DNA from: a virus
Virus record (IMG/VR): IMGVR_UViG_3300029994_000019
Coordinates: 1-25,059 of that record
Reading direction: 5' to 3' (one strand)
DNA: 25,059 nucleotides
Below the pieces are notes generated by a model. That model saw nothing but the letters and a program-made list of their open reading frames with translations, was not told the origin of the DNA and did not search any database. The position numbers and the translations under genes were made by a program. Of the stretch, positions 1,326 to 22,444 are shown piece by piece; the stretch's first letter is position 1, and the number at the start of each line of letters is the position of its first letter.

Positions 1326-1351
1326 CCACCTGGTATAATGTTATAAGGTGG
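1326..1351 (+). promoter_or_regulatory. extended -10 promoter inside a palindrome (possible operator)
   Basis: TGGTATAAT at 1331-1339 is a perfect extended -10 element. No good -35 hexamer lies 16-18 bases upstream. The -10 sits inside an inverted repeat, CCACCT at 1326-1331 and AGGTGG at 1346-1351, so a dimeric regulator could overlap the promoter. The predicted transcript starts near 1346 and the next gene begins at 1371, with AAGGAG at 1360-1365. The core CCTGGTATAAT and a following AGGTGG recur upstream of the protease gene at 9956-9975. Promoter function is inferred from sequence. Confidence 0.6.
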
Positions 1352-1370: not shown

Positions 1371-1820
1371 ATGGAGTTCGATAAGTTAAATGAATTTGTA
1401 GATCAGCAGAGATGGTTGTTGAACAACGGTCTCGTGCATGAATCTACAAAGAATCAATTATTCTTTTTCGGCTCTATCGTTCATCCTAGTGTACAAGCTG
1501 TCGAGATGAATCTTCAGACCGACATAAAAACTGTTGATTATATTTTGTATTTTAATAAGAAAGTACTTAATAAGATCGACAAGTACAAAGAGCTCTCCAC
1601 TGCCACATCGTTATTTGGTATGTGGAAGTTTAAACGCCTTCTTCAAAAAGAGGGTGACTTAAATCTTCAGGGCATATTAAATTCGTTTGTTAAAGGCTTC
1701 TGTGGTCCTGGCTGGACTACTAAAATCACTTTAATGGACTTCGATGCGTATATAGATAACATTGGAGAACCAAGTGAGCCCGAGCAACCAGGTCAGCAAC
1801 CTAATAAATTGCCTGACTAA
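1371..1820 (+). CDS. conserved-looking phage protein of unknown function
   Basis: The 149-residue protein has a strong ribosome site (AAGGAG at 1360-1365) five bases before ATG, and is the first gene after the palindromic promoter. It is mixed alpha/beta with several aromatic residues (FFFGSIVHP, GMWKFKR, FCGPGW). It ends in a proline/glutamine/glutamate-rich tail (SEPEQPGQQPNKLPD) that looks disordered. No signal peptide, membrane segment or catalytic motif is evident. Its 3' end overlaps the next gene out of frame by about 47 bases. Position directly upstream of the terminase genes suggests a packaging-era role or a regulatory role, but nothing in the sequence decides this. Confidence 0.75.
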   Translation: MEFDKLNEFVDQQRWLLNNGLVHESTKNQLFFFGSIVHPSVQAVEMNLQTDIKTVDYILYFNKKVLNKIDKYKELSTATSLFGMWKFKRLLQKEGDLNLQGILNSFVKGFCGPGWTTKITLMDFDAYIDNIGEPSEPEQPGQQPNKLPD

Positions 1821-2172
1821 TGATGAAGACCAGCGTCAAAACCTATGGATCCACTATTTAAGTGGTAACCCGCCGTCTTCATTCGCATCCTATTTAAGCA
1901 AGATAGAACGAGAATTCTCTTTAGATTCTCAAATCCAGCAAACGTTATGGGATACCCATTCCAACCCCAAAACGGATAAGTTCCAGGAATTACTAGTAAA
2001 TTTCAGTGAAATTGAGCAATCAGTACTATGTCTGTTGGCACTTGGACTGACGATAAGTGAAATCTCTTCATACAAAGGTATCAGCGAGGTGCGTATTAGG
2101 CAGCTGATCTCAGTTGTAAGGTATAATGAATGCTGGGAAGAGATATATGGCATTAAAGAAAAGACTGACTGA
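1774..2172 (+). CDS. small HTH protein resembling sigma-70 region 4
   Basis: The C-terminal half contains FSEIEQSVLCLLALGLTISE followed by ISSYKGISEVRIRQLISVVR, the pattern of sigma-70 region 4 / LuxR-type helix-turn-helix proteins (an E-x-x-V-L-x-L opening, then I-S-E-I and V-R-I-R-Q-L). I chose GTG at 1774 because GGAG at 1764-1767 is six bases upstream; an in-frame TTG at 1762 is possible but lacks a ribosome site. That gives about 132 residues. No region 2 is present, so it cannot be a complete sigma factor by itself. It may be a DNA-binding regulator or one part of a split sigma-like system. It overlaps the genes on both sides, so it is co-translated with the terminase cluster. Confidence 0.65.
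   Translation: MSPSNQVSNLINCLTNDEDQRQNLWIHYLSGNPPSSFASYLSKIEREFSLDSQIQQTLWDTHSNPKTDKFQELLVNFSEIEQSVLCLLALGLTISEISSYKGISEVRIRQLISVVRYNECWEEIYGIKEKTD
2122..2127 (+). promoter_or_regulatory. possible -10 element ahead of the small terminase gene
   Basis: TATAAT preceded by AGG lies within the end of the preceding gene. A transcript starting about seven bases downstream would begin just at GGGAAGAG (2135-2142), the ribosome site for ATG 2147. No -35 is visible and TATAAT also occurs by chance in AT-rich coding DNA, so confidence is low. Confidence 0.3.
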
Positions 2173-7305: not shown

Positions 7306-7452
7306 ATGTACGTCCGAGAAGACGGCACTGTTGTAACTGATGAAGAGCGTTATGCCACAATGATGCTTATTAAGATCCTATATAGACTTCAACTCATAGA
7401 AGAAGAGCAAGCTATGAAAATAGCAACCCAGTTCCATATTCTGTATGTATAA
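7306..7452 (+). CDS. small ORF of unknown function (48 residues)
   Basis: An ATG one base after the portal stop opens a frame of 48 codons. The product begins MYVREDGTVVTDEERYATMM and continues as an apparently amphipathic helix to FHILYV. It exactly fills the space between portal and the next kinase gene, which supports it being real, but the ribosome site is absent and composition alone does not prove coding. Its TAA stop (7450-7452) lies inside a TATAAT (7448-7453) ahead of the kinase gene. No function can be assigned. Confidence 0.5.
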   Translation: MYVREDGTVVTDEERYATMMLIKILYRLQLIEEEQAMKIATQFHILYV

Positions 7453-7453
7453 T
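7448..7453 (+). promoter_or_regulatory. possible -10 element ahead of the kinase gene
   Basis: GTATAAT stands ten bases before the kinase start codon, with AAGGAA (7457-7462) between them. If used, the leader would be only about four bases, shortening the ribosome site. It overlaps the stop of the 48-codon ORF. No -35 is visible. Confidence 0.3.
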
Positions 7454-8336: not shown

Positions 8337-8974
8337 AGGGTTTTAGAACAGCACCACAAGGTAATCGTAAAGAGAAAATTCGCGCACATGAGGTTCAACT
8401 TAAGAACTTAGAGATGTCTGTTCGCATCAATCAAATGATGACTCAGCAACTTATGCAGAACTTAAAAGGTATGCATGAAGACATCGGCAGAGCGTTGAAT
8501 CTTATCTCAGAAATGCAATATAAGATCCTAGCCATTCAAAAAGTGTCTGGTCTAGATCTCGCAGCTATGAATGCTGTTGCTAACGAGCAACGTCTTCAAG
8601 ATTTCTGTGAAGCTTCTGATAAAGAAGATGCTGAAAAAGGTTTCACTAACGGTGATACAGTCAACGAACAATCTACTGTAGTCATCACTTCTACAACCGA
8701 AGGTAGCGATACTGGTATCTTCCGCTCAAGACTTAAGTTGTCTGAGTGCGGTGTTCCAGATCTTATTAATGCCTTCATGGGCCGTGAAGTTGGAGCAAAA
8801 GCAATTGTTACTCTAAACGGATTAGAACATGAAGTTGAACTCCTCGCTATTAGACAACCCGCTGTGGAAGTTCCAGCAGCTACAGAATCAGAAGAAACTG
8901 CAGCGACAGATGACAGCGAAAGCGAAACTACTAGTTTTACTGCGACTACTCAAGATAACCAGGCCACTGCCTAA
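8333..8974 (+). CDS. coiled-coil protein of unknown function
   Basis: The 213-residue protein starts within the stop of the kinase gene (ATGA). Residues ~15-75 look like a continuous helix or coiled coil (HEVQLKNLEMSVRINQMMTQ and on). A more compact segment follows around 125-170 (FRSRLKLSECGVPDLINAFM, then AIVTLNGLEHEVELLAI). The last ~45 residues are Thr/Ala/Glu-rich and probably disordered. No catalytic motif, signal peptide or membrane segment is seen. It is co-translated with both neighbours, and the next gene's ATG overlaps its stop by one base. Function unknown; a scaffolding or regulatory partner is as likely as a virion protein. Confidence 0.75.
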   Translation: MKGFRTAPQGNRKEKIRAHEVQLKNLEMSVRINQMMTQQLMQNLKGMHEDIGRALNLISEMQYKILAIQKVSGLDLAAMNAVANEQRLQDFCEASDKEDAEKGFTNGDTVNEQSTVVITSTTEGSDTGIFRSRLKLSECGVPDLINAFMGREVGAKAIVTLNGLEHEVELLAIRQPAVEVPAATESEETAATDDSESETTSFTATTQDNQATA

Positions 8975-9387
8975 TGTCTAAAAAGGACAGCACTATGGAC
9001 TCGCGATGCCCTCGGGGTCTAAAGTGCAATCCGGATAAGTTCTGTCCACTTGCGGTAATGCGACTCAGAGCGATTCGTACTGCCGGGCACGAACTAACTG
9101 AAGAGGAAGAAGCAAAGCTTCCAGGTTGTCCATGGGCTGTAAACCACCAGCTTGCTAACTACTGTTTTTTTAACTACATCAAAGACTATGTGGGTGATAA
9201 ACCGCCCTCTGATATCGAAGTTGCATCCTTGAACTGTATCTCTGTTGACGCAGTTAAGAAGACTGAGAAGAACGCTTTGAATAAGATTAGGAACACAGAG
9301 CAGTTTCAAGATTTGAAAGAATCTTTAGATGGCGGAAGTATATTAGATGATCACCTCACAGACGAAGACTATAAGATCTACAGATAA
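8974..9387 (+). CDS. Cys-rich protein with sigma-region-4-like HTH
   Basis: The N-terminal half has six cysteines in a probable zinc- or metal-binding arrangement: CPRGLKCNPDKFCPLA, then LPGCPWA and YCFFNY. The C-terminal half, roughly residues 77-107, reads SDIEVASLNCISVDAVKKTE followed by KNALNKIR, which parallels sigma-70 region 4 (S-x-x-E-V-A, I-S-x-x-x-V, E-K-x-A-L-x-K-I-R). It could be a transcription regulator acting on RNA polymerase or DNA. The ATG at 8974 overlaps the upstream stop. An in-frame ATG at 8995 has a better ribosome site (AAAAGGA seven bases before it) and would drop seven residues without touching the cysteines. The sigma comparison is by eye. Confidence 0.75.
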   Translation: MSKKDSTMDSRCPRGLKCNPDKFCPLAVMRLRAIRTAGHELTEEEEAKLPGCPWAVNHQLANYCFFNYIKDYVGDKPPSDIEVASLNCISVDAVKKTEKNALNKIRNTEQFQDLKESLDGGSILDDHLTDEDYKIYR

Positions 9388-9955: not shown

Positions 9956-9975
9956 CCTGGTATAATCTTAGGTGG
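9956..9975 (+). promoter_or_regulatory. extended -10 promoter of the protease gene
   Basis: CCTGGTATAAT at 9956-9966 matches the 1329-1339 element base for base over eleven positions, and AGGTGG (9970-9975) follows as it does there, with three fewer bases between. There is no convincing -35. Transcription starting near 9973 would leave only about four bases before ATG 9977, so the message may be nearly leaderless, because AGGTGG is only one base from the start codon and poorly placed as a ribosome site. The promoter role is inferred. Confidence 0.55.
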
Positions 9976-12970: not shown

Positions 12971-14413
12971 ATGAATGACGCAGTAAACTCAATTTTACAA
13001 GGCCTAGATCAAGGGCTCGTCTCCGCATCGGATATCGAGTCATTGAACAAAGCTATTACAGCAGGATACGGTGGGGCTGGAAAGCCGACCGATCTAACCT
13101 ATGGTGGAGTGCTACAAGCCGAATCACTAGAGGCAACTCTTAAGTCGATCACCTTCGACATGAAGAACCTCAAGTTTTGGCCAGCTATCTCTGTAGACAA
13201 AGCTTATAACCTATTCGAACAATACAATCGTTTGATCAGTTATGGTTCTGACAGTGCTCCGTATATCGGAGAAGGTGGAGCTCCTCAAGAGGAAGATTCT
13301 ACTTACGTACGTGACGGTCAAAAGATCGTGTTCTTCGGAACTAGACGTCGTGTGTCACACCAAATGACATTAGTTCGTGTTACTGTTGGCGACATCGTTG
13401 CTCAACAAGCTAAAGAAGGTACTATGCATCTTCTTAAGAACATCGAACGTGAAATGTATTGGGGACATGCCCACTTCATGAATCAAGTAACTGGTAACGA
13501 AACCGGTTCTGATGCAGATCTTCCATCTAACAGTATCGCGATGAGCGGTTTGTTAAAACAACTTCAAAAAGGCGACACCGATGCGCAAATGCAAGCGGGT
13601 GACTTCTTAGGATATGGCGACTCTAGCTCAATCATCACTGATTTAGCTGGTCAAGTTATGGCTCAAGATGACATCGAACGTTTAGCGGTTATTGCTCTCG
13701 AAAACTTCGGTGCTCCTGATCAATTGCACATCGAACCAGCTGCTCTTTCAGCTTTCGTTAAGCAATTTTATCCTCAATTTCGTTCGGCTCCAGGCCTTGC
13801 AAATCAAACCGTTGGTTACGATGTATCTAAAGTACAAACAACTGCCGGCGCGATCGACCTTAAGCCAAACTTGTTCTTGCGTCCTCGTAGTGGCGTTCGC
13901 GCTATTGCAGTAAACGCAGCATCTCCAGCGGCTTCATTCGGAATCACTCCAACAGGAACTGGTTCTACATCAACCTTCGCAGCAGGTGTTTACCAATTGT
14001 CAGTAACAGCAGTAAACGATTCTGGTGAGTCATCTCCAGTAAACAGCACTGTAACTTTGACAGCCAATCAAAACTTACAAGTTGCGATTTCCTCTGTTCC
14101 ACCAGGCGTTAAGTATTTTAAACTTTACTTAAGTGCACCAGGCGGAGCTGCAGGTTCTCAAAAATTTGCCGGTAACTGGGCAAACCAAGGTTCAGCTAAC
14201 TATATTAGCTCGAACGTTCAATTGCCAGGTCTCGGAGAAGCATTCTTGCTTGATATGTCAGCAGAATGTATGCGTTTCAAGCAATTAGCACCATTAAGCA
14301 AGATCAACTTTGCTATCGTGACTACTGCTCTTGAGTTCGCGATCGTAATGTACGGCGCGTTGTTCGTGTATACCCCACGCTTCAACTGCTTGTTCCGCAA
14401 CATCGGAAAATAA
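12971..14413 (+). CDS. major capsid protein with Ig-like insertion
   Basis: The 480-residue protein follows protease and scaffold genes and has a ribosome site GGGAG upstream. Residues 1-~26 form a short helical N-terminus that is a likely cleaved propeptide, then KAITAGYGGAGKPT (27-40) and the conserved-looking start of the shell domain (SITFDMKNLKFWPAISVDKA). The body (~55-315) is what I expect for an HK97-fold capsid of T4-like/large phages. Residues ~316-412 look like an inserted immunoglobulin/fibronectin-like beta domain (FAAGVYQLSVTAVNDSGESS and on), after which the capsid sequence resumes (LDMSAECMRFKQLAPL to FNCLFRNIGK). The insert is probably exposed on the capsid surface. It is followed by a strong terminator. 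Capsid identity is by synteny and overall pattern, since no catalytic motif exists to check. Confidence 0.88.
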   Translation: MNDAVNSILQGLDQGLVSASDIESLNKAITAGYGGAGKPTDLTYGGVLQAESLEATLKSITFDMKNLKFWPAISVDKAYNLFEQYNRLISYGSDSAPYIGEGGAPQEEDSTYVRDGQKIVFFGTRRRVSHQMTLVRVTVGDIVAQQAKEGTMHLLKNIEREMYWGHAHFMNQVTGNETGSDADLPSNSIAMSGLLKQLQKGDTDAQMQAGDFLGYGDSSSIITDLAGQVMAQDDIERLAVIALENFGAPDQLHIEPAALSAFVKQFYPQFRSAPGLANQTVGYDVSKVQTTAGAIDLKPNLFLRPRSGVRAIAVNAASPAASFGITPTGTGSTSTFAAGVYQLSVTAVNDSGESSPVNSTVTLTANQNLQVAISSVPPGVKYFKLYLSAPGGAAGSQKFAGNWANQGSANYISSNVQLPGLGEAFLLDMSAECMRFKQLAPLSKINFAIVTTALEFAIVMYGALFVYTPRFNCLFRNIGK

Positions 14414-14483: not shown

Positions 14484-14498
14484 GGGTATAATAGTCGT
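14484..14498 (+). promoter_or_regulatory. -10 element six bases before a start codon (leaderless candidate)
   Basis: GGGTATAAT (TATAAT 14487-14492) stands exactly six bases before ATG 14499, so transcription would begin at or next to the start codon. No Shine-Dalgarno sequence is present. It follows the capsid terminator directly, so the gene needs its own promoter. Confidence 0.55.
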
Positions 14499-15774: not shown

Positions 15775-15779
15775 ATAAG

Positions 15780-15808
15780 TATAATATCACATAAGAGCAC
15801 TTAAGTGC
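15780..15808 (+). promoter_or_regulatory. promoter with 12-base palindrome ahead of thymidylate kinase
   Basis: GTATAAT (TATAAT 15780-15785) is followed by a perfect palindrome GCACTTAAGTGC at 15797-15808, then AAAGGAAGA and ATG 15823. The palindrome covers the expected start of transcription and could be an operator or a leader hairpin. A TTGACA at 15761 is only 13 bases from the -10, too close for a normal sigma-70 promoter. The same region must also contain the upstream sequence of the divergent HNH gene. Confidence 0.45.
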
Positions 15809-15822
15809 CCTAAAGGAAGAAT

Positions 15823-16491
15823 ATGACAGATAAAAAACGCTGTAAATACATATGTTTAGAAGGTTGCGAGGGCGTGGGCAAAACTACACAGACCCAGAAG
15901 CTAGTAGATTTCCTTAGAGCTAAAGGTTATAAGGTCCTTCAAACTAAAGAGCCGGGAACTTCCCACGCTCCACTTACATTACAGCTTCGGGCTATCATGC
16001 TCGATAATAAATACGACAAAGAATTAACAGCTCCTGCTAGAGAGTTGATTAGCCAAGCCATTAGATCTATTCACTTAGAGAAGGTAATCGTCCCTGCTAT
16101 CACCGAATATGACTATATTATTCAGGATCGCGGTATACTTTCGGGGTTAGCTTATGGATTTGCTTGCGGCAATGGAATAGATACCTTATCGATGTTGTCG
16201 GCTTATGTTACAGATAGTGCACGTCATGTATTATGTGATGGCATTTATGACAGTATAATTTATCTTAGGGGAGACACCTCCGCTGGTCTTAAAAAAGCTC
16301 TTGCTGCCAAGCAAGAATTTGAGACTGGTGACGCGATGGAATCGCGTGGTACCTCTTTCTTAGAACAGGCTTCGTCTGCTATGGACGAATTATCTAGCTC
16401 CTTTAACACTAAGAAAATCAGTGTTGACGGTAAGAGTATCGACGCGGTCTTCAGTGAAATATTGAAGACTCTTAATATAAAGGAAGAGTAA
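15823..16491 (+). CDS. tmk: thymidylate kinase (dTMP kinase)
   Basis: The 222-residue protein has the canonical dTMP-kinase motifs: P-loop LEGCEGVGKTTQ (G14-x4-G19-K20-T21), TKEPGT near 41-46 and a QDRG near 102-105 with surrounding LSGLAYGFA. It phosphorylates dTMP to dTDP in the cytoplasm for phage DNA synthesis. Length and motif spacing fit the family. The ribosome site AAAGGAAGA precedes ATG, and its stop overlaps the next gene's ATG by one base (TAATG), so it begins an operon with the exonuclease and CYTH genes. A second kinase of the same superfamily lies at 7464, with a different P-loop and an added domain. Confidence 0.88.
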   Translation: MTDKKRCKYICLEGCEGVGKTTQTQKLVDFLRAKGYKVLQTKEPGTSHAPLTLQLRAIMLDNKYDKELTAPARELISQAIRSIHLEKVIVPAITEYDYIIQDRGILSGLAYGFACGNGIDTLSMLSAYVTDSARHVLCDGIYDSIIYLRGDTSAGLKKALAAKQEFETGDAMESRGTSFLEQASSAMDELSSSFNTKKISVDGKSIDAVFSEILKTLNIKEE

Positions 16492-18664: not shown

Positions 18665-19903
18665 ATGGAACTTAAAAGTTTCAGGGAGATCTTGCTAAAG
18701 AAGGCTGAAGATAATCCCTACCTACAAACGTTGATCAAGTATGCTAAGGACGAGTTGCTAGCTGACGAAGTGCTTGAAGCACTTCTTAAGATGGCAGAAC
18801 CCTCTGCAGCTATGGGTCGTGGTGCAAACCATGCAGTGACCTCATATGGAGCTGGTGTTAAACCAGTTCACGTTGAACAGATGCGTGATGCTTTATCACA
18901 TCACATCTCTCACTATAAGGGAGCTCTTGAAGCCCATCATAAGTCTGAGAACCCAACTGAAAAAGCAAATCTTCGCAATGTTGCAGATCAGCACTTGAAT
19001 AAGATTGTTCCATTGATGCACCTTGCTGGTAAAGCAAGTAAGCACTCTGGAGGAAATCTTACACTTGATTATCCTAGCACTACTCCATGGGAAACAAACT
19101 ACACAAGCACTGAAAGATTGCCTAACGGTAAACTTAAAGAAGGTACCAAGGATCTTGGACGTCGTCCAGCTCCTCGTGCTAACCGTACAGACAACCCAAG
19201 AGCAGTTCCAGATTATCGCTACTTAGAATCACCTCCACATCCAGGTCACGCTTCAACCGATAGACTTGCTACCAAAGGTGGATATCCTTTTGAAGACATT
19301 CAACTAGGATCTCCTGCTAAACGTAATGCGGGTCAAGCTTATCTACCTATTGAAGATGTTGGGCAGAAAAATGAATTTACCCCTCATCCATTTGATTCCC
19401 ATCCAGTGCACCAGCACGCAGACAAGTCTCAAAGTGATATTGGTCCAGATGATCATGAAGCTATTAACTCTGCATTAGCAGGGTGGACTGACAGCGATCA
19501 ACATAAGCAATGGATGGCTGATCAAAAAGCAAAGCATACTAAGGATCCAGAGGCATATAAAGCTAGAGGAACCAAGAAGCCTGAGCACGTGTATGGTAAT
19601 GTTCCGCTTAACATGATGCCGCATCATAATGAAGCATTAGCAAATCAAGCTAAGGCTCCAGCTACTGTTGCACCTGACACCGCTTCGCCACAGCAAGTAG
19701 CGGAAGCACAAGCTGCTACAGCACCAGCACCAGCGCAAGAGCAGAAAGCTGCTCCAGCTACTAAGGCAGCAAAAGCTAAGCAATCATTCGACATGAGCAA
19801 GCCACCAGAAGGTTTAGATGTTAATATCGCTAAGCATTGGAAGTCTTTTCCTGAGAACACTCGCATGGAGATCTTAAGAGATTTCGCGAAGAGGAATAAG
19901 TAA
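18665..19903 (+). CDS. probable virion/internal protein of unknown function
   Basis: The 412-residue protein has AGGAG before ATG. The N-terminal ~50 residues are helical (MELKSFREILLKKAEDNPYL and on). The middle is rich in His, Pro, Asn and Asp with no known domain (SHHISHYKGALEAHHKSENP). Around residues 325-375 there is an Ala/Pro/Gln/Lys-rich linker (SPQQVAEAQAATAPAPAQEQ), and it ends in a basic helix (SKPPEGLDVNIAKHWKSFPE then REILRDF-like residues). The architecture, compact ends joined by disordered linkers, resembles head-internal or ejected proteins, but that is an inference. The stop overlaps the next ATG by one base. Confidence 0.6.
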   Translation: MELKSFREILLKKAEDNPYLQTLIKYAKDELLADEVLEALLKMAEPSAAMGRGANHAVTSYGAGVKPVHVEQMRDALSHHISHYKGALEAHHKSENPTEKANLRNVADQHLNKIVPLMHLAGKASKHSGGNLTLDYPSTTPWETNYTSTERLPNGKLKEGTKDLGRRPAPRANRTDNPRAVPDYRYLESPPHPGHASTDRLATKGGYPFEDIQLGSPAKRNAGQAYLPIEDVGQKNEFTPHPFDSHPVHQHADKSQSDIGPDDHEAINSALAGWTDSDQHKQWMADQKAKHTKDPEAYKARGTKKPEHVYGNVPLNMMPHHNEALANQAKAPATVAPDTASPQQVAEAQAATAPAPAQEQKAAPATKAAKAKQSFDMSKPPEGLDVNIAKHWKSFPENTRMEILRDFAKRNK

Positions 19904-21513
19904 TGTCTAAGTCAAAGCAGCTCGCTAGTACTATTAAAGAATTTTTTAACTCTTCGAAAGAAGATGCTCAATCCCTTGGTGAACTCAAGGCGCTTTTAGA
20001 GAAGGCTCGTAGACGTATGTCTGACGAGGAACAAGATCCAGACGAAGCAGAAGACAACGACCTAGATGGGATGAGAGAATTCAACCCTGACGAGGAAGGT
20101 GACGATGCGGATAAATGGCTGGAGGAAAACGATCCTGAGCAACAGGATGAGGAGCAAGAAGATGAACCTGAAGAATATAATGAGTATGAGCCTGGCGAAG
20201 ATGAAGAGTCTCATCAGCAGTTTGATGATGAAAATGAAGAGCCTAATGCAGAAGCTGTCTCTCCTGGAGAAGGAAGAGGTATCGAAAGCCAAAGCGGAGA
20301 TCCAGAAGGTGGAAGCGGAAGTGAAAGCCAAGGTAGTGGATATCAAGAGCCGCCGCAAGAAGACTCCGAAGAAGTAAGTGGTGGTAGTCGTTTCCGTCAG
20401 CCATCTAAAGGTGAGATGGCGGAGATGCGTCAGTACACTCGTCCATGGGAAGACCGTGCTCGTGATAAGGAACGCTTAGAGGCAGATGCATCTAAGAATC
20501 CTGTATTGCATCATGAAGGTCGTCTCGTAGAAGCGCGTAATGCTGGACACAAAGAATATCAAGATGCTTACAAAAAGCTTCAAGGTTCTAAAGAGTATAA
20601 CGATGCGGATCCTATCACCCAGATGGAGATGGATACTAACTTCGAGAAAGACTGGCACAAGAACAATCCAGATTATCTCTCTAATGCAGCGAAGCTTCAC
20701 AGCCAAGCTCACTTAGAAGGATTAAAGGGAATGTCTCAAGGCGCTGGTGCTAAGAAGGAAAGTATTCAACACGTTCGTGGTGGTGGAGCGCAAGCAGAAA
20801 ACCCTATGTCTGTCGAAGCTGCGATGCAACATGCTGGCGGTCAGAAGGGCGAAGAAGGAACTACTGGGTCCATGATCCAAGATCCGTCTTCCAAGTTTGC
20901 TAATAATAACCAAAACTTCTTAAGAGATGAAGGCGCTAAGCATGAAGGCAAAGCTGCAGCGAGAGAGGCAACCTATAATAAGAAGGCTGCCGATTACGCT
21001 AAGAAGCTTGGTGGAGATATTCCAGAGTACAAGAAGGGCTCAGTCCAAGATGTACTAGGAGATCATCCAGGTTTGAAAGACCCTAAGAATAAAGCGAAGA
21101 TGGATAAGTTCTTTGAACATTATCATCCTCTTATTAACATGAGCGCTCACAAAGTTCTCAATAAGTTAGGTTTGGATAAGAAGAGTATCGATATGGGTCA
21201 GATGCACGAAGCAGGCATGCATGGTTTATTCCGTGCAGTCAATGACTACGAGCATGATAATCCATCTAAGGCTAGCTTTGCTACCCACGCAGGTAATAAG
21301 ATTCGTGGACTTATGCAGACCGCTTTAAGAGATCAGCAGCAAGTTCCACAGCATCTAGCTTCAGCTGCTAAAAAATATAACTTAAAAGATATCATGACTA
21401 AGCACCCACCGGAGCGTGCTGATAGAATGACTAGAGTGAACACTGCAAAGGCAATGGCAACCCCAAAGGTTCCTAAGGCACCAGCAGGAGGAGAAGGTAA
21501 TGAGCAACAATAA
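19903..21513 (+). CDS. acidic linker protein ending in a sigma-70 region-2-like domain
   Basis: The 536-residue protein has three zones. Residues ~35-165 are extremely acidic and disordered (DEEQDPDEAEDNDLD and so on). Residues ~170-395 are charged, partly helical and unrecognised. Residues ~400-485 resemble sigma-70 region 2 and the start of region 3: YHPLINMSAHKVLNKLGLD, then QMHEAGMHGLFRAVNDYE, FATHAGNKIRGLMQTALRDQ and VPQHL. E-x-G-x-x-G-L-x-x-A-V-x-x-Y and F-x-T-x-A-x-x-x-I-R-G are the hallmark positions, closest to flagellar (FliA-type) sigma factors. The tryptophan dyad used by housekeeping sigma for promoter melting is absent. No region 4 is attached. Starts at the upstream stop (TAATG) with GAGGAA as ribosome site. 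It may be a virion-associated or regulatory protein; role unknown. Confidence 0.7.
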   Translation: MSKSKQLASTIKEFFNSSKEDAQSLGELKALLEKARRRMSDEEQDPDEAEDNDLDGMREFNPDEEGDDADKWLEENDPEQQDEEQEDEPEEYNEYEPGEDEESHQQFDDENEEPNAEAVSPGEGRGIESQSGDPEGGSGSESQGSGYQEPPQEDSEEVSGGSRFRQPSKGEMAEMRQYTRPWEDRARDKERLEADASKNPVLHHEGRLVEARNAGHKEYQDAYKKLQGSKEYNDADPITQMEMDTNFEKDWHKNNPDYLSNAAKLHSQAHLEGLKGMSQGAGAKKESIQHVRGGGAQAENPMSVEAAMQHAGGQKGEEGTTGSMIQDPSSKFANNNQNFLRDEGAKHEGKAAAREATYNKKAADYAKKLGGDIPEYKKGSVQDVLGDHPGLKDPKNKAKMDKFFEHYHPLINMSAHKVLNKLGLDKKSIDMGQMHEAGMHGLFRAVNDYEHDNPSKASFATHAGNKIRGLMQTALRDQQQVPQHLASAAKKYNLKDIMTKHPPERADRMTRVNTAKAMATPKVPKAPAGGEGNEQQ

Positions 21514-22444
21514 CGATGGCGGAAACGGTAACGAGACTCCAGCAGGTCTTTACGAGGACCTACCGGAAGATGCGTTCATTGGTGGTAATATTTTAGGGAC
21601 TGGCATTCGTCAAACTCCTACAGTATCTTCATTTCCTTCATGGGCAGTAGAGCAAGACGGTCATGAAGTTAGACGCTATGAAAAGATCCCAGATGTTGAA
21701 GTTATGAAGAACGGTCCTCTTTTTGGATTGCCAATGAGATCATTCCTAACAGGTCAGGTCGTTGAGGATTCTACCATCGAGATGTATATCCAACAAGCAA
21801 TTTCTCAAATAGAGCACACCCTAGACATCTATATCAATCCCGTGACGTTCGTGGAGAGACACGATTATTCTCGCGAGATGATGTTCTATTCTTTCGGAGT
21901 TACTAAACTCCATCATGCACCTATTATTAACGTAGAATCGTATGAGTTAACTTTTAATAACGGTATTGGTATTCCTGGCTCCGTGCCCCTTGTCAAAATA
22001 CCCAACGAATTCATCCATGTTCAACCCTCAGATGGAACTATTCAAATTGTGCCTGCACAAGGTGTAACCATCTCTGGTTTCATCGTGTCTATCTATTCTG
22101 GTTTAGGTTTTCATGCGTTCAACTCACAGGCGATCTCTGCATGGCCAGGAGCTGTGTTAGTTAAGTATCGTGCCGGCTTTGAGAAGCATAAAGTTCCAGC
22201 TATGATGGCTGGCTTAATTCAGAACATTGCTGCATTTAAGTTCTTATCAACTTTGGGACCAGTGTTGTTTCCGTATAACTCTACTAGCGTAGGTATCGAC
22301 GGAACTAGTCAAAGTGTAAGCACTCCAGGTCCGCTATTCTTACAGAATAGGTTGAAAGACTTGGCGACAATGATTCAAACAGATATGGAAGCGGCACGCG
22401 GCTATTATCAAAAAAGGTTCTTGGTCGACGCCCTTAGTTATTAA
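21500..22444 (+). CDS. head-tail connector / head completion candidate
   Basis: The 314-residue protein overlaps the previous gene by 14 bases and has a strong AGGAGGAGAAGG upstream of ATG. After a Gly/Asn-rich start, residues ~90-120 form a helical segment (STIEMYIQQAISQIEHTLDI), followed by beta-rich sequence and then WPGAVLVKYRAGFEKHKVPA with helices to the end (IQNIAAFKFLSTLG, then LKDLATMIQTDMEAARGYYQ). Helix-beta-helix order, the YRAGFE-x-x-x-V-P pattern and size fit head-tail adaptor proteins that dock under the portal. It is downstream of the capsid genes, as connectors usually are. No motif is decisive. Confidence 0.5.
   Translation: MSNNNDGGNGNETPAGLYEDLPEDAFIGGNILGTGIRQTPTVSSFPSWAVEQDGHEVRRYEKIPDVEVMKNGPLFGLPMRSFLTGQVVEDSTIEMYIQQAISQIEHTLDIYINPVTFVERHDYSREMMFYSFGVTKLHHAPIINVESYELTFNNGIGIPGSVPLVKIPNEFIHVQPSDGTIQIVPAQGVTISGFIVSIYSGLGFHAFNSQAISAWPGAVLVKYRAGFEKHKVPAMMAGLIQNIAAFKFLSTLGPVLFPYNSTSVGIDGTSQSVSTPGPLFLQNRLKDLATMIQTDMEAARGYYQKRFLVDALSY

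Follow-up and report, generated by a model that had tools for sequence, protein, structure and literature searches.

A FliA-type sigma region 2 domain fused to an acidic assembly-cluster protein in phages with an SPO1-type head cluster

In one clade of phages, to which the virus fragment analyzed here belongs, a sigma domain is fused to an acidic protein of the assembly-gene cluster, and in sister phages the same domain is encoded by a separate gene. Sigma region 2 is the part of a sigma factor that enables RNA polymerase to open promoters, and we tentatively read the domain as the -10-recognizing, promoter-melting half of a split phage sigma that has been fused in this clade. The sigma pieces known from phages are free proteins; in the present case a free gene and a fusion are found in related genomes, within one phage group that also has a candidate promoter element, candidate partner proteins and sister sigma factors that stop before region 4.2.

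The window, by which we mean the whole stretch analyzed, is a 25-kb IMG/VR virus fragment (25,059 nucleotides) with an SPO1-type head cluster that includes terminase, portal, head protease and capsid protein. As the sequence-only reading had noted, the fused gene lies within a morphogenesis cluster. Head and tail genes surround it, and its place is between the capsid and neck-type genes. Coordinates of the features discussed are collected in Table 1.

Table 1. Features of the window, with positions counted from its first nucleotide
Feature	Position	Strand	Remarks
136-aa protein with second, weaker region-4-like HTH	1762..2172	+	HTH at residues ~77-117
137-aa Cys-rich protein with region-4.2-like HTH	8974..9387	+	HTH at residues ~78-107; candidate partner
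SPO1-type major capsid protein	12971..14413	+	query for collecting relatives
412-aa upstream neighbor of fused slot protein	18665..19903	+	
Fused protein, 536 aa	19903..21513	+	acidic part, then FliA-like sigma region 2 and a C-terminal tail
Acidic N-terminal and middle part of fused protein	19903..21042	+	residues ~1-380; homologous to shorter sigma-less proteins of sister phages
Sigma-70 region 2 domain, FliA type, with start of region 3.0	21079..21378	+	residues ~393-492; profiles, fold
C-terminal tail of fused protein	21379..21510	+	similar end in several sigma-less homologues, by eye
314-aa downstream neighbor of slot protein	21500..22444	+	PHROG 772 (tail fiber); weakly PHROG 442 (head-tail adaptor)
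GTATAAT	1333..1339	+	upstream of ORF 1371
GTATAAT	2121..2127	+	at start of ORF 2126
GTATAAT	7447..7453	+	upstream of ORF 7464
GTATAAT	9960..9966	+	upstream of head protease gene 9977
GTATAAT	14486..14492	+	~12 nt before in-frame ATG of ORF 14463
GTATAAT	15779..15785	+	upstream of dTMP kinase-like gene 15823

Identity and conservation of the sigma domain

The sequence-only reading had placed a FliA-type sigma region 2 at positions 21100-21360 and called for a sensitive profile comparison. That comparison returned sigma factors from NCBIfam, the PDB and PHROG, and the domain limits we obtained fit the proposed position. Against NCBIfam, the whole protein matched FliA PRK06986 (E=5.7e-11) and FliA_WhiG TIGR02479 (E=1.3e-10), and all of the matches listed for it with E<0.1 were sigma factors. 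The C-terminal 136 aa alone matched TIGR02479 with E=5.1e-12 over residues 404-494. FliA was also found in the PDB, both with the window protein (E=1.3e-5, phmmer) and with a 16-row family profile that includes the window (E=1.1e-8). PHROG 351 (RNA polymerase sigma factor) matched the window domain with E=1.8e-9 and 8 of 16 family members. Pfam Sigma70_r2 matched 6 of 16 members (best 6.1e-7), the window copy falling below the cut-off at E=0.11, and the full-length protein gave nothing at E<=1 in Pfam.

Among named families and folds, FliA/WhiG sigma-28 comes closest to the domain, although the 536-aa protein is not a complete member of it. Its TIGR02479 score is 46 bits against a curated cut-off of 189.6, and the alignment ends at position 87 of the 224 in the profile, short of the later regions. 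Consistent with the claim that region 4 is absent, none was seen among the Pfam and NCBIfam matches listed, and only a 44-residue tail follows the domain. The part in front of the domain is acidic, as described, with a net charge of -45 over the first 391 residues. An AF2 model of the domain had moderate confidence (mean pLDDT 70) and gave a best Foldseek E of 7.4e-3. The best 50 entries listed by VIA-align were all sigma factors by title, the top match being FliA 9wsf (Z 10.8, rmsd 2.1 over 79 residues). While VIA-align cautions that Z values of this size can arise for helical models from a common arrangement of helices, the uniformly sigma list argues against this artefact. On the profile and predicted-fold evidence, we take the C-terminal domain to be a genuine FliA-type sigma-70 region 2. 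Chance resemblance was ruled out by these matches together with selection and conservation in 16 aligned members (window included). Alignment A1 omits the truncated copies L007, L009 and L010.

Position 403 (RpoD numbering) is acidic in RpoD, in FliA and in all seven stand-alone domains (D or E), and in none of the 18 fused domains, where it is M, L, Q, S, V or A. We take D403 of RpoD to be a main contact with the beta' clamp, and the functional roles of the other scored residues are likewise assumed from the sigma literature. FliA thus differs from the fused domain in having D at 403 as well as further regions after region 2. The clamp-binding surface, which the sequence-only reading had named as a check, came out divided: the region 2 fold is present in the model, and D403 is replaced in every fused domain. 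At position 430, 17 of the 18 have H and one has W, compared with Y in four, H in two and F in one of the stand-alone domains. Other positions are uniform among the 18 fused rows, which all have E at 406 and retain G408, L412, F427, T429 and G437. The sigma domain is under purifying selection, with a pN/pS of 0.19-0.30 versus 0.33-0.66 for other parts of the same protein (five pairs, with synonymous sites near saturation).

Fused and stand-alone forms in related phages

The capsid protein search collected 80 loci. The slot between the two flanking genes is occupied by one long ORF in 38 sequences (window included), 18 with the sigma domain and 20 without it by a simple motif search; since several contigs are copies of one phage, these counts are not independent. 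Sigma-less slot proteins (L035, L070, L060 and others) can be aligned over residues ~30-350 of the protein in the window, and because several of them have a similar end, the sigma domain has the appearance of an insert ahead of the tail. Expression of a free sigma domain from within the fused gene, by an internal promoter or start, seems unlikely: the TATAAT at 20974 falls in a YN codon pair and is not kept in L005, L013 or L004 (by eye).

On the capsid tree, all fused members but L080 fall in one 36-row clade (SH-aLRT 99), the other rows of which are in an unknown state ('u') and were not counted. L080 is among the 20 motif-negative slots and has by profile a degenerate sigma-2-like copy (E 3.2e-7, L080:16770-18158) in which most hallmark residues are lost. 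Its position outside the fused clade gives two changes on the capsid tree, but the domain tree, which cannot place L080 (branch 4.3), does not reject a single fused clade (p 0.60). We therefore did not accept two independent fusions, and the L080 copy may be either a second fusion or a relic. The domain tree separates the fused and stand-alone domains, as one group, from seven rows that represent RpoD, FliA and RpoD-like sigmas of phages (98/91), and a long stem (1.83) leads to the fused clade.

In sister phages the domain is a stand-alone gene located elsewhere, of about 120-165 aa from likely starts. A profile of fused and stand-alone domains was positive in 24 of 36 records, our own choice out of the 80 capsid loci: 16 fused, 7 stand-alone and the record of L080. 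All ten records of at least 130 kb were positive with one domain each (six fused, four stand-alone); profile A2 includes rows from seven of these ten, among them all four stand-alone ones, so the E-values for the long records are not independent. A second weak match in one of the records, G010, is its RpoD-like sigma. The remaining 12 records (31-116 kb, with G008 and G013 above 100 kb) gave no match to the sigma-2 profile. Compared with Pfam Sigma70_r2, two of six stand-alone relatives scored above the cut-off of 24 (38.1 and 40.4 bits) and four below it (11.6-23.8). Two human faecal 'Bacteriophage sp.' entries considered as relatives of the stand-alone gene, MT835480 and MT835847, were discarded, the fetched stretches being bacterial flagellar operons with FliA.

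A 110-aa gene on the opposite strand adjoins the stand-alone gene in all seven loci, and nearby are genes that we named by eye as ligase-like (seven loci), ClpP-like (five) and trypsin-like (four). The same neighborhood is found in G001, a fused genome, with no sigma gene in it. SPO1, a phage with a related capsid gene, provides a parallel, as its late sigma genes gp34 and gp33 adjoin DNA ligase. Unlike the window domain, SPO1 gp34 appears to combine the two regions in a single protein, with an E of 4e-5 to Sigma70_r2, just under the cut-off, and a weak r4 match. Using hhalign, we found no relation between gp34 and A2, A3 or A4, or between gp33 and A3, in comparisons of low power with a single sequence on one side. 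Among named phages, tblastn found no match to the whole 536-aa protein or to the 8974-9387 and 1762-2172 proteins. No fusion of a sigma region 2 to an assembly-cluster protein of a phage appeared among the results listed for our searches of an open-access library, and the evidence of novelty is limited to that extent.

A GTATAAT element and candidate partner proteins

Shine-Dalgarno sequences and GTATAA/TATAAT are the prevailing hexamers ahead of structural genes. As a sequence motif, the element reads GTATAAT; a faint T/A signal precedes it by 14-17 nt, and there is no -35. G is found at -1 of TATAAT in 83% of the 174 sites that lie ahead of leading structural genes, compared with 37% of 375 other plus strand sites and 10% of 309 minus strand sites; the 83% figure is descriptive, as the ten leading-gene sets were picked after seeing which had TATAAT. 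A TTGACA-like -35 is present in 1%, 3% and 3% of these three classes, respectively. A comparison of gaps that is less biased than the 83% figure, although with arm limits set by hand, indicated that the element is commoner in the structural arm than in the rest of the contig, both in G001 (6/18 vs 7/99, one-sided p 0.005) and in G009 (7/14 vs 15/107, p 0.004).

GTATAAT is also found outside the structural arm, and all seven stand-alone sigma-2 genes have TATAAT at most 45 nt from the start (GTATAAT in five of the seven). Distances of the motif are approximate because ORF starts were taken as the first ATG, GTG or TTG. In 40 of the 174 sites the element lies 10-14 nt before the listed start, a spacing that would predict leaderless transcripts, though the phage has strong Shine-Dalgarno sites. 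In the window, the element at 2121 overlaps the listed start of ORF 2126, and the true start is therefore probably a later ATG. The dTMP kinase-like gene itself contains a seventh GTATAAT (TATAAT at 16254).

Two small proteins encoded in the window, at 8974-9387 and 1762-2172, are candidate region-4-like partners on the basis of their sequence. Of 81 sequences, 66 have the first protein, and it is missing from none of the 64 that extend beyond 5.2 kb upstream of the capsid gene. Pfam Sigma70_r4 matched 16 of 25 members of its family at E<=0.5 (best 9.2e-6), the window copy not being among them. A fold search with a model of this protein gave a best Z of 2.4 and a Foldseek E over 1, and plain HTH scores for the family (25-49) overlap noise (up to 26). 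Four cysteines are invariant (C12, C24, C52 and C64 in the window copy), which suggests a metal or Fe-S site beside the HTH. A homologue of the 1762-2172 protein was found in 18 of 20 records; Sigma70_r4_2 matched 3 of 12 members of this family (best 0.0032), and PDB sigma-H was matched with E 0.0011.

Three genomes with the stand-alone sigma-2 gene, G009, G010 and G011 (L103, L102 and L104), encode an RpoD-like sigma as well, 228-229 aa long when counted from the first ATG. Its alignment ends at E. coli RpoD residue 565, before the region 4.2 HTH, and there the protein stops. We found no HTH downstream in any frame of the 3.6-kb loci, where the best score was 26 compared with 56 for the FliA control. 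Because these sigmas end before the 4.2 HTH, region 4.2 seems to be either unnecessary or provided by a different protein, and the truncation would fit promoter use without a -35 or with an HTH from another protein. While the truncated sigmas help the split sigma reading, they could themselves be the late sigma.

Possible roles of the fused domain

The fused domain is a constrained but altered sigma 2. For this reason we hold the split sigma reading tentatively, at somewhat below an even chance, and we also weigh, as rather unlikely, exaptation of the domain, in which the sigma-2 fold, once fused, ceased to act as a sigma and was kept as a module by which an assembly or packaging protein binds DNA or protein. 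The domain is related to a phage sigma-2-only protein, the one with a separate gene in sister phages. As a split sigma, the sigma-2 half would redirect host RNA polymerase to the GTATAAT promoters of structural genes, and a small region-4-like protein from the same cluster would be its probable second half, as gp33 is to gp55 in T4. No beta' homologue was found in any of 10 records, indicating that host RNA polymerase is needed. The free gene presumably came first and was then fused before the C-terminal tail of the acidic assembly-cluster protein, and the fused sigma activity, made from the structural regulon, may feed back on that regulon. The assembly-linked transcription switch suggested in the sequence-only reading is plausible in so far as GTATAAT precedes structural units, stand-alone homologues exist and the region-4-like proteins are conserved; the function itself is a prediction.

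Known systems offer precedents for parts of this scheme. T4 gp55 and gp33 are called a split sigma in an excerpt of PMC2988020. According to the same excerpt, sigma similarity in T4 is likewise confined to domain 2 in one protein, with a region-4 mimic in a separate protein, use of the host polymerase and late genes as the target (PMC2988020). Of the features of a split late sigma, we found the region-2-only domain and, as a sequence motif only, a -10 without a -35. T4 differs in that gp55 is a free protein working with the gp45 clamp, whereas the present domain is FliA-like and fused to an acidic cluster protein. A beta clamp search found no match, and a gp45-type clamp was seen in 0 of 10 records in a search without a useful positive control. 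In Bacillus subtilis, SigO-RsoA is a sigma likewise divided over two proteins, as part of PMC10141391 describes, although it is cellular and without fusion to an assembly protein. Group 2 jumbo phages have minimal HTH-only sigma factors, again a sigma piece as a separate protein (in part of PMC7824862); there the piece is the HTH, and here it is region 2. For the SPO1-family phage K, sections of PMC11598898 describe late promoters with a -10 and without a -35, report that host rpoC mutations block late genes, and call late promoter recognition in SPO1-related phages still poorly understood. The presence of both states in one group makes testable how a sigma half moves into an assembly-cluster protein, whether polymerase is still bound after loss of the acidic clamp contact, and how late transcription proceeds in SPO1-related phages.

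Several observations count against the split sigma. The structural cluster, where the fused gene lies, is a late place to encode an activator of late genes. GTATAAT could simply be a strong -10 of the ordinary host kind, the sequence matches of the region-4-like partners are weak and find no confirmation in their fold, and 12 of the 36 records lack a sigma-2 match. D403 is lost in 18/18 fused domains and Y430 is replaced, with H at 430 also in 2/7 stand-alone domains. These same losses speak for exaptation, since acidic 403 is lost in no stand-alone domain (0/7) and Y430 in all of the fused ones, and the long stem to the fused clade, the gene position between capsid and neck-type genes and the degenerate L080 copy, short of most hallmark residues, are consistent with it as well. 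Exaptation is harder to reconcile with the six fused records of at least 130 kb, which have no other sigma-2 domain by the profile used, whereas the sisters keep a separate gene. The five residues from G408 to G437 kept in 18/18 fused rows and the strong constraint on the domain also speak against exaptation.

Position in the head/neck cluster, and fusion to a protein conserved there, would also suit a protein that is packaged and injected, with a sigma-2 domain that takes hold of host polymerase when infection begins. Such delivery would provide an initial amount of an activator that is encoded within its own regulon, and an injected phage polymerase is described for N4 in an excerpt of PMC4496689. 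We regard it as quite unlikely, however: the sole family leads are weak N-terminal matches of two sigma-less homologues to PHROG 1108 (portal; E 0.0037 and 0.013), and the annotations of SPO1 and Mx1 show no slot protein in the corresponding position. The combination in which the fused capsid-cluster protein enters the particle and each virion brings its own late-promoter recognition subunit, priming the first structural transcripts, is decidedly improbable; if true, it would constitute an assembly-coupled, self-amplifying transcription switch. An anti-sigma or decoy role, in which the domain would turn off host transcription by keeping host sigma from the clamp or from regulators, might be suggested by the presence of sigma region 2 without region 4 and by the altered clamp face; it is very improbable, given the late cluster position and the stand-alone genes that themselves lie behind the GTATAAT element.

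Some further observations concern the hosts and coding of these phages. The capsid gene is present in three MAG contigs (L182, L183 and L184), assigned to Saprospiraceae, Cytophagales and Flavobacteriaceae. One Bacteroidota MAG contig has the same coordinates and 146,658 bases as the contig of L030 and may thus be misbinned phage. The strong Shine-Dalgarno and TATAAT signals seen here are, we presume, unlike Bacteroidota. Recoding of TAG in G001 is unsupported: 26 ORFs stop at TAG, and a long extension is seen for one ORF that ends in TAG. The same genome has two adjacent CTA-anticodon tRNAs (L134:6344-6499), which ARAGORN calls tRNA-Pyl.
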